DNA of 64,000 bases from an uncultured Spirochaetales bacterium (GTDB lineage: Bacteria > Spirochaetota > Spirochaetia > Sphaerochaetales > Sphaerochaetaceae): contig CASFTW010000001.1 of assembly GCA_949297785.1 (NCBI GenBank), forward strand, positions 1 to 64,000, given 5' to 3'. Positions 1,273 to 41,648 of this stretch are shown here, in pieces. Every line of letters starts with the position of its first letter. The first letter of the stretch is position 1. The notes under the pieces are model-generated. The model made no database searches. It had not been told where the DNA came from and worked only from the letters and a program-made list of their open reading frames with translations. The position numbers and the translations under genes are program-made.

Positions 1273-1437
1273 ATGTCAAAAGCACATAGAGGTACTGGCA
1301 TCAGAGAACTGGCTAATCAGGGTAGAGCAACATGTCCGGTCTGCAAGAGAGAGGCAATCAAGTGCCTTTACGAAGTAGAGATGGACGGTGCAAAGCTCAA
1401 TGTCTGCAAGCAGTGCAATGCCAAGCTCAAGAAATAA
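1273..1437 (+). CDS. 54-residue CxxC zinc-ribbon-like protein
   Basis: A short gene with every sign of being real: a consensus promoter (1208-1237), AGGAG six bases before the ATG, and a hairpin-plus-T terminator (1458-1487). The protein begins MSKAHRGTGIRELANQG, then has CPVCKRE, a middle stretch with an extra cysteine, and CKQCNAKLKK at the end. Two CxxC pairs about 28 residues apart suggest one bound zinc. It is very basic, which suits nucleic acid or ribosome binding. It is not ribosomal protein L28 or L33 by sequence. I think similar small proteins occur in other spirochaetes, but I know of no assigned function. Confidence 0.75.
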   Translation: MSKAHRGTGIRELANQGRATCPVCKREAIKCLYEVEMDGAKLNVCKQCNAKLKK

Positions 1438-1457
1438 GATCAGTATGGTCTTTCATG

Positions 1458-1487
1458 TCGAGGTTGTTGTCCAGCCTCGATTTTTTT
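1458..1487 (+). terminator. Terminator of the CxxC gene
   Basis: Stem TCGAGG (1458-1463) with CCTCGA (1475-1480), an 11-base loop and seven T. The loop contains the -35 of the murC promoter, and the T tract runs into its -10 box. Confidence 0.7.
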
Positions 1488-1492
1488 ATACT
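1464..1492 (+). promoter_or_regulatory. murC promoter nested in a terminator, leaderless type
   Basis: TTGTTG at 1464-1469 lies in the terminator loop. A 17-bp spacer leads to TATACT at 1487-1492. The murC ATG is at 1501, eight bases after the -10. No Shine-Dalgarno sequence is seen, so a leaderless or nearly leaderless mRNA is expected. Confidence 0.65.
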
Positions 1493-1500
1493 TTTCACAT

Positions 1501-2898
1501 ATGAAATATTTTCTTGTAGGTATCAAAGGCACAGGCCTTTCCCATCTTGCCGCCTATCTGGTAAAAGGCGGGAATGAAGTGGAAGGCTGCGATGTCAGCG
1601 AGGACTTCTTCACTTCCATAATACTGAAAGGCATCACACTGCATCCGCTTGATTCTCCGCTTCCTTCCGGTACGGATGTTATCGTTTATTCCACAAGTTA
1701 TGAGAACCGTTCGGTCCCTGCAATGGAAGAAGGAAGAAAAAGGGGTGTGAAAATATTGTCATACCCCCAGATGCTTGCGGTTTTATCTTCCGCAATGCCG
1801 TCACTTGCCGTATGCGGCACTCACGGCAAGAGCACGACATGTGCAGCTGCCAGTTTTCTGGCTTCTTCACTCACTCTGCCTTACGGCTCAGTATACGGTT
1901 CGTTCCTTTTGGGAAATGAAAAGGTCTTTCATGACGGTGATGAAGGCATTATCATCGAAGCATGCGAGTATCAGGATCATTTCATGCTATACGACCCAGC
2001 AGTCCTTACCGTGACATCACTTGAGTTCGATCATCCTGATTACTTCGAGGATCTTGATGCCGTGAAGAAGAGTTTCAGGAACAGGGTGACTTCTCTGAAA
2101 AAAGGAGCCGTTGTCGTATACAATACCGATATATCCAGATATGTGAAGGACTGGCAGAGCGAAAGACCGGATCTGGTTTTCATCGGCTATGGTGACAGAG
2201 GCCCTTTTTCCCTGTCGAAGAATGCACAGGACAACTGGACTCTTACAGGTGTTGAAGGAAGTTTCATCTGTCATGAGAAAAACGTTGCCATCGTATATGA
2301 TTACATAGCAGCTGCCGTATCGCTTGCGGCCCTGATGCTTTGCACTGAGAACAGAACTGTTTCCGTTTCATCTGTTGCAGCGCTCCTGCCCCGTATGCTT
2401 TCGTTTATCGGTTCTTTCCCGGGACTTGCCGCAAGGGGAGAGGTTGTGAAAACTGAAGGCGGGGTTACCTATATTGACGACTATGCCCATCATCCCCATG
2501 AGATCAAGGTCTGCCTTGACAACCTGAGACAGAAATACCCGGGAAGACGGATCATCGCGCTTTTCATGCCGCATACTGCAAGCCGCACCAGAGCACTCAT
2601 GAAGGACTTTGTGACGGTGCTCTCGGCATTTGATGCGCTTTTCATACAGAATGTCTATTCATCTGCACGCTCTGACGGAGGCAATGAAGCCTCATTGCAG
2701 CTTTACAAGGCTCTTGAGAAAAAGGTTTTCAGAACCTTCTACGGCAGACTCAACAGCGTTGCATACTGCGACAGCGATGATGATGCGGTAATGAGAACCG
2801 CTTCGTTTCTCATCCCCGGCGATATCCTTGTGACACTTGGTGCCGGAGACAACCGTGCTCTGATTGACAGGATAGCATCTGCTGGAAGATTATCGTGA
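1501..2898 (+). CDS. murC: UDP-N-acetylmuramate--L-alanine ligase
   Basis: 465 residues, the usual MurC length. It adds L-alanine to UDP-MurNAc, using ATP, in cytoplasmic peptidoglycan precursor synthesis. The N-terminal Rossmann part shows GIKGTGLSHLA (residues 7-17); the ATP loop GTHGKST is at 106-112; EACEYQDHF near 151 and the following FDHPDYF match the MurC metal and substrate region of the Gram-positive-like branch; DDYAHHPHE near 326 is the central Mur-ligase signature. Mpl is the main alternative, but the EACEY form favours MurC. murD lies elsewhere in this window (37966-39327), so these mur genes are dispersed rather than in a dcw cluster. Confidence 0.88.
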   Translation: MKYFLVGIKGTGLSHLAAYLVKGGNEVEGCDVSEDFFTSIILKGITLHPLDSPLPSGTDVIVYSTSYENRSVPAMEEGRKRGVKILSYPQMLAVLSSAMPSLAVCGTHGKSTTCAAASFLASSLTLPYGSVYGSFLLGNEKVFHDGDEGIIIEACEYQDHFMLYDPAVLTVTSLEFDHPDYFEDLDAVKKSFRNRVTSLKKGAVVVYNTDISRYVKDWQSERPDLVFIGYGDRGPFSLSKNAQDNWTLTGVEGSFICHEKNVAIVYDYIAAAVSLAALMLCTENRTVSVSSVAALLPRMLSFIGSFPGLAARGEVVKTEGGVTYIDDYAHHPHEIKVCLDNLRQKYPGRRIIALFMPHTASRTRALMKDFVTVLSAFDALFIQNVYSSARSDGGNEASLQLYKALEKKVFRTFYGRLNSVAYCDSDDDAVMRTASFLIPGDILVTLGAGDNRALIDRIASAGRLS

Positions 2899-41001: not shown

Positions 41002-41029
41002 GTCTTGACTTAGTGTTGATCTGAAAATG

Positions 41030-41058
41030 CAGGAGCTTCGGCTCCTGTATTTTTTTTC
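41030..41058 (+). terminator. UUCG-loop terminator
   Basis: CAGGAGC, TTCG, GCTCCTG, then TA and eight T. The tetraloop makes it very stable. Its end contributes to the promoter region of the next gene. Confidence 0.85.
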
Positions 41059-41068
41059 TCTTTCCGTG

Positions 41069-41074
41069 TATAAT
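41069..41074 (+). promoter_or_regulatory. -10 box of the CBM9-like gene, leaderless type
   Basis: Perfect TATAAT with seven bases to the ATG at 41082. A poor -35 (CTGTAT, 18 bp) sits in the preceding terminator. No Shine-Dalgarno sequence. Confidence 0.55.
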
Positions 41075-41081
41075 AAGCGTC

Positions 41082-41648
41082 ATGAGAATCACAAAGGAAA
41101 AGACGGAACATCATCTTGACAATTATCTGTGGGGCTCCTGTGAGACGGATGCTGCCGTGAACGTAGCTCTGTCACATGACGACTGTGTCCTTCATGCACT
41201 ATTCGATGTGAGGGAAAAAGAACTCAGGCGCATGGTATGGGATGCCAACGGTCCTGTATGGACAGACAGCTGTGTTGAAATATTCATAAAGAACAGAAAT
41301 TCCAGCGAATACTCGAATTTCGAATTCAGTGCATCTGGAGCTTTTCTGGCATGTCATGGAGAGGGCCGCAAGGACAGAATCTTCTACACTGATGATGAAC
41401 GCACTGCCGTTACTGACAGTGTCAGCATTCTTGAGAACAGCAACAAGGGTAACCACTGGATACTCAGTGCCTCAATAGATCTCAGGAAGCTTGGAGTAAT
41501 TGAAAGCACGGATGATGAGATATGCTTCAACATATATAAATGCGGAGACGGGCTCAAAAAGCCTCATTTCATTTCACTTTTCCCCATTTCACTTCCGTCC
41601 CCTGACTTCCACTGTCCATCCTTCTTCACCTGTGCTCAGCTAGTGTAG
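41082..41648 (+). CDS. CBM9-like (carbohydrate-binding-like) domain protein
   Basis: 188 residues. The strand pattern ALFDVREKELRRMVWDANGPVWTDSCVEIFI (near 40-70), NFEFSASGAFLACHGEGR near 81, WILSASIDLRKLG near 127 and CFNIYKCGDG near 148 matches the family-9-like domain found in sugar-binding proteins. No signal peptide is present, so a cytoplasmic role is expected despite the fold's usual exported use. It has a leaderless-type promoter and ends in overlap with tcdA. Confidence 0.7.
   Translation: MRITKEKTEHHLDNYLWGSCETDAAVNVALSHDDCVLHALFDVREKELRRMVWDANGPVWTDSCVEIFIKNRNSSEYSNFEFSASGAFLACHGEGRKDRIFYTDDERTAVTDSVSILENSNKGNHWILSASIDLRKLGVIESTDDEICFNIYKCGDGLKKPHFISLFPISLPSPDFHCPSFFTCAQLV

Follow-up and report, generated by a model that had tools for sequence, protein, structure and literature searches.

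We found that the junction between cxxC, which encodes a small protein with two CxxC pairs, and murC is most likely occupied by one element of about 45 bp that combines the cxxC terminator, the murC core promoter and a leaderless murC start. The junction lies in the window, the 64,000-nt stretch of DNA analysed here, which is the start of contig C1 of a 2.2-Mb genome. Compared across relatives, it appears to be a compact, evolutionarily maintained form of a known type of gene junction.

The upstream gene of the junction, cxxC (1273–1437, plus strand), is an open reading frame for a 54-aa protein and is led by a Shine-Dalgarno sequence (SD; TAGGAG). An orthologue is present in 15/16 genomes of the genus. 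Conservation of the protein extends through the genus and most of the sampled family, with its gene beside murC, yet it has no match in Pfam, NCBIfam or PDB. The downstream gene, murC (1501–2898, plus strand), starts 63 nt after the end of cxxC and encodes a 465-aa UDP-N-acetylmuramate--L-alanine ligase of cell-wall synthesis with Mur ligase domains; its product matches TIGR01082 at 1.6e-79 and 268 bits, which does not reach the model cut-off of 335 bits, and the runner-up model scores 104 bits. The MurC of the closest named relative found, a Sphaerochaetaceae genome, is 40% identical to it, which places the genome with the Sphaerochaetaceae. A scan of genome contigs returned mainly distant Bacteroidota MurC and was uninformative for the junction. 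One record among these matches (L059) bears the title Bifidobacterium breve; its MurC falls among the Bacteroidota-like matches, and the record is probably a mislabelled MAG.

Behind cxxC, the sequence at 1457–1481 (plus strand) folds into a hairpin of 10 pairs with a 5-nt loop (5′ arm 1457–1466, loop 1467–1471, 3′ arm 1472–1481), and a tract of seven T residues follows at 1481–1487. The predicted folding energy is –14.5 kcal/mol (z –6.3), and 0/200 shuffled sequences fold as stably. This is the make-up of an intrinsic terminator, a G+C-rich RNA hairpin with an immediate U tract. In the alignment of relatives, pairs 8-30 and 11-27 of the stem change on both sides (U-A to G-C and A-U to G-C), and the hairpin sits 20 nt downstream of the cxxC stop in all species. 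From its sequence, the element at 1457–1487 very probably ends cxxC transcription. Since the hairpin also lies 19 nt ahead of the murC start, it might be imagined as an attenuator or riboswitch in a murC leader and not as the cxxC end; however, its fixed distance from the cxxC stop ties it to the upstream gene, and an RNA start at 1499–1501 would leave it outside the murC mRNA. A search of Rfam returned no family at threshold and one sub-threshold snoRNA match. We rejected the attenuator or riboswitch, which we consider extremely improbable, on the Rfam result and on the tie to the cxxC stop.

The murC promoter as read from the sequence consists of a –35 hexamer (TTGTTG, 1464–1469), a 17-nt spacer (1470–1486), a –10 hexamer (TATACT, 1487–1492) and a discriminator of eight bases (1493–1500) that leads up to ATG 1501, all on the plus strand. 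The positions that the first-pass annotation gave for the –35, the –10 at 1487 and the ATG eight bases on are all correct, and the first base of the –10 does lie in the T tract, as it had said: T1487, the last T of the tract, is shared. Its placement of the –35 in the terminator loop holds for 1467–1469 but not for TTG 1464–1466, which takes part in the stem at the upper end of the 5′ arm (U-G, U-A, G-C). With the –35 within the hairpin, half in the 5′ arm and half in the loop, and the –10 beginning in the T tract, terminator and promoter share bases on the same strand.

Hexamers about 17 nt apart are the layout of a sigma-70-type promoter, and this layout is kept in relatives. The match to TTGACA/TATAAT is 3/6 plus 5/6 (8/12), with a weak –35, and falls below the threshold of a generic promoter scan, so that a single genome sequence taken without comparison makes a weak case for a murC promoter. 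When we counted gene starts in 302 kb that are preceded by TTG, 17 or 18 nt, at least 5/6 of TATAAT and 6 to 8 nt, we found 5/153, as compared to a mean of 0.16 and a maximum of 2 in dinucleotide shuffles. A purely accidental promoter was rejected on this count (5 observed, 0.16 expected) and on the persistence of the motif at a divergence where synonymous sites are saturated.

To follow the junction through the genus, we compared the genomes that have murC, and the order cxxC, hairpin, murC is kept in 15/15 of them. In 13 of these 15 species, murC has no SD, starts with ATG and carries a –10-like hexamer 6–10 nt upstream. Seven sequences from five lineages (the window clade, G014, G005, G009 and G008) share TTGT, a spacer of exactly 17, TATACT, TATGCT or TATTAT, 7–8 nt and ATG. 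Between these five lineages, MurC is 49–55% identical and the four-fold sites of murC are 24–38% identical, so neutral sequence has been randomised. The probability that TTGT would hold its position in all four of the further lineages by chance is about 1e-9, a rough figure that ignores shared ancestry and the constraint of the hairpin. Weaker versions at spacer 17 are present in G015 (TTGATC/TATTTT) and G011 (TTGATT/TAATGT). In four species on deeper branches (G003, G006, G004 and G007), a –10-like hexamer lies 6 nt before the ATG and there is no TTG 16–18 nt upstream of it; the embedded –35 is therefore not genus-wide. In two sister species (G002 and G012; loci L005 and L006), the embedded promoter is lost, the T tracts are short and murC has GGAG or GGAGG with a TTG or GTG start.

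Outside the genus, the order cxxC, murC recurs in at least eight further genera of the family, some of which (several cases) have an SD at murC, and the hairpins of other genera (for example, L018 and L022–L025) have no TTGT-17 motif. In a MurC tree, all strong cases fall in one clade with 99/97 support, and the two SD species are nested inside it. The simplest history that we infer from this distribution is that an ancestral murC was led by an SD, that murC became leaderless in the genus, that the –35 was then fused into the terminator in one clade, and that the SD returned in two species.

These comparisons also bear on whether the element is a terminator only. In that case, murC would be transcribed by polymerase that started at the cxxC promoter and read through, and the promoter-like bases would simply result from a T tract lying beside A/T-rich DNA. 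Co-transcription may be ancestral, as the shared gene order and the SDs in other genera would suggest, and the two sister species have the short T tracts and SDs that go with read-through. However, in the window clade, murC would have no SD on a read-through mRNA; a T tract gives no reason for TTGT and its 17-nt spacing to persist in lineages whose neutral sequence is randomised; and the hairpins of other genera are without the motif. We consider this reading distinctly improbable, and read-through as the sole source of murC mRNA was rejected because murC has no SD and the TTGT-17 grid is conserved. Of the readings considered, a murC promoter overlapping the terminator of cxxC accounts best for the comparisons, and it is well supported because the –35/–10 spacing is kept in divergent lineages and lost in the two SD species. 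The proposal of the first-pass annotation, a murC promoter inside the cxxC terminator, is thus supported by the grid kept in five lineages, by the compensating hairpin and by this loss.

A further possibility is that TTG is kept for the RNA, as the top of the terminator stem or as a protein-binding loop at the cxxC 3′ end, and that only the –10 serves murC, with no true –35. TTG does pair with A/G, A/G and C/U in 4/5 lineages, 20/31 leaderless promoters of the genus lack TTG at 17–18 nt, and the four deeper-branching species keep the –10 alone. Against this, the strand that pairs with TTG varies while TTG is constant; the hairpin of G014 is offset by one base from the promoter grid, and TTG is still 17 nt away from the –10; and TTG also peaks at 17–18 nt where a leaderless promoter has no hairpin. 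Hairpin pairing could be part of the reason why TTG is conserved, but we think it unlikely that the RNA accounts for it to the exclusion of a –35. The earlier claim that RNA and DNA functions can coexist in 45 bp fits this overlap, in which constraints on the RNA and the DNA can be told apart on shared bases. The two functions may nevertheless depend on each other, as interference or hand-over between them would be expected.

There is no SD upstream of ATG 1501, and no alternative start codon lies in frame from the cxxC stop to the MurC domain. With no SD, an AUG start and the –10 8 nt away, within the spacing of about 6–8 nt that marks leaderless genes, a leaderless mRNA is expected, and that of murC is probably leaderless, with a leader of 0–2 nt. 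To ask how common such starts are, we sampled 302 kb of contig C1, where 266 background genes were called with our own simple ORF and codon-usage caller, and 115–200 kb from each of four other genomes. Among 52 genes of contig C1 with no SD and a gap of 25 nt or more, 13 have a good –10 hexamer at 6, 7 or 8 nt from the start (6, 6 and 1 genes, respectively), as compared to about 0.4 per position elsewhere before the same starts. Samples of three further species gave the same peak within the genus (7/32, 8/34 and 3/25). Genes led by an SD are a biased control for the position of the –10 because the SD sits in the same place; we used the sister genus (G017, a sample of its complete genome) as a control, where the peak before starts without an SD is 0/38. 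Among 31 leaderless promoters, seven have TTG at spacer 17 and four have it at spacer 18; of the other spacers from 12 to 23, only 14 and 22 are represented, by a single promoter each. By these sequence measures, leaderless starts are a class characteristic of this genus, and murC belongs to it since it has no SD and follows the –10 peak at 6–8 nt and the TTG peak at 17/18, into which TTGTTG fits. The predicted leaderless murC mRNA and the wide leaderless use in the genus are the key consequence that the first-pass annotation had left implicit.

The murC junction is not the only predicted one of its kind in this genome. In the 302-kb sample, a terminator is found in 15/68 same-strand gaps, and in five of these the next gene looks leaderless and the terminator ends no more than 50 nt from its start. 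At C1:132081, the –10 (TAAGAT; TATGAT in relatives) follows the T tract immediately, with 6 nt between it and the ATG. In one relative (G010:C2:89476–90023, L171/L172), the orthologue of the kinase-like gene at C1:132081 is split into two overlapping frames, by a frameshift or an assembly error. At 41020–41082 of the window, the gene for the 30-aa ribosomal protein bS22 (MPCGKKRKKHK...; 3.4e-10 to a solved protein) is followed by a hairpin, a T tract, TATAAT, 7 nt and ATG 41082 of a 188-aa gene. Judged by its sequence, the bS22 junction is similar to the murC junction; its hairpin and a –10-like hexamer near the start are kept in most of 13 species, and its –35 region falls within the 3′ arm and T tract, with no TTG kept. 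The tightest predicted overlap with a recognisable –35 is the murC junction.

Taken together, the parts of the junction, their spacing and conservation, the missing SD and the leaderless class of the genus, all established by sequence and comparison, suggest a mechanism in which promoter strength, exact start, termination efficiency and leaderless translation are inferred. The 3′ end of the cxxC transcript would fold into the hairpin at 1457–1481, and the RNA would be released in the U tract at about 1482–1488. The same bases as duplex DNA would form the murC core promoter, with the loop, the 3′ arm and the T tract as its 17-bp spacer. By the usual sigma-70 distance from –10 to +1, murC RNA would start at 1499–1501 (A1499 or A1501), with no leader and no SD, and would be translated by the leaderless route. 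RNA polymerase has a footprint of about 30–40 bp. Because it spans this much and both events act on the same DNA, termination and initiation should not be able to take place at once: the promoter would be hidden under a terminating polymerase, and a bound holoenzyme would block an elongating one. In vitro, a polymerase that has completed intrinsic termination can stay bound to the DNA and start again at promoters close by (PMC6978380, PMC6978322), which would make a hand-over possible at the murC junction. The promoter near the terminator is a possible restart site, as in those experiments, although they used a separate terminator and promoter in vitro and the murC junction is overlapping and known from sequence. 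The overlap might even be a coupling device, in which the polymerase that terminates cxxC, already on the murC promoter, restarts or blocks it and murC output tracks cxxC without a shared mRNA. On this reading, the genus would use such junctions after small translation-type genes (cxxC and bS22); we give the idea only a small chance.

Terminator-promoter overlap and leaderless mRNA are each known; what is new, as predicted here, is that both occur in one 45-bp element, with comparative evidence for DNA and RNA constraints on the same bases. In the inter-operon overlap at tufB-secE of Salmonella (Brandis, Cao, Hughes 2019, as described in PMC7055797), a terminator also shares DNA with the promoter of the next unit on the same strand, in a gene order long kept. 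The murC junction differs from that description in that 8 nt separate the –10 from the start codon, which makes terminator, promoter and leaderless start one element. Some bacteria, the spirochaete Leptospira interrogans among them (PMC5243855), make many leaderless mRNAs, and such mRNAs are found in Corynebacterium glutamicum (PMC3890552), with the –10 6–8 nt before the AUG and no SD as at murC; unlike these, the murC case is predicted from sequence alone, and theirs are not described as embedded in a terminator (PMC5243855, PMC3890552). In the open-licence literature, we found no earlier case of a promoter within a terminator with a leaderless start. The junction offers a clean comparative case for separating constraint at the level of RNA from that at the level of DNA, as the stem is free to change if compensated and the –35/–10 grid is fixed, and a natural template for the hand-over of polymerase from a terminator to a co-located promoter. 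In this host-associated genus of spirochaetes, predicted leaderless starts form a regular class, and automatic annotation that relies on the SD would misplace them.

Leaderless-looking starts were also seen at other sites. The first ORF of the window most likely starts at ATG 111, 6 nt after a perfect TATAAT and of the leaderless type, and not at the listed TTG 93. On contig C1 of the window's genome (G000), two divergent gene pairs (204167–204234 and 220145–220178) have gaps of 66 and 32 nt, and both genes of each pair look leaderless, with promoters that point apart within a few tens of bases.
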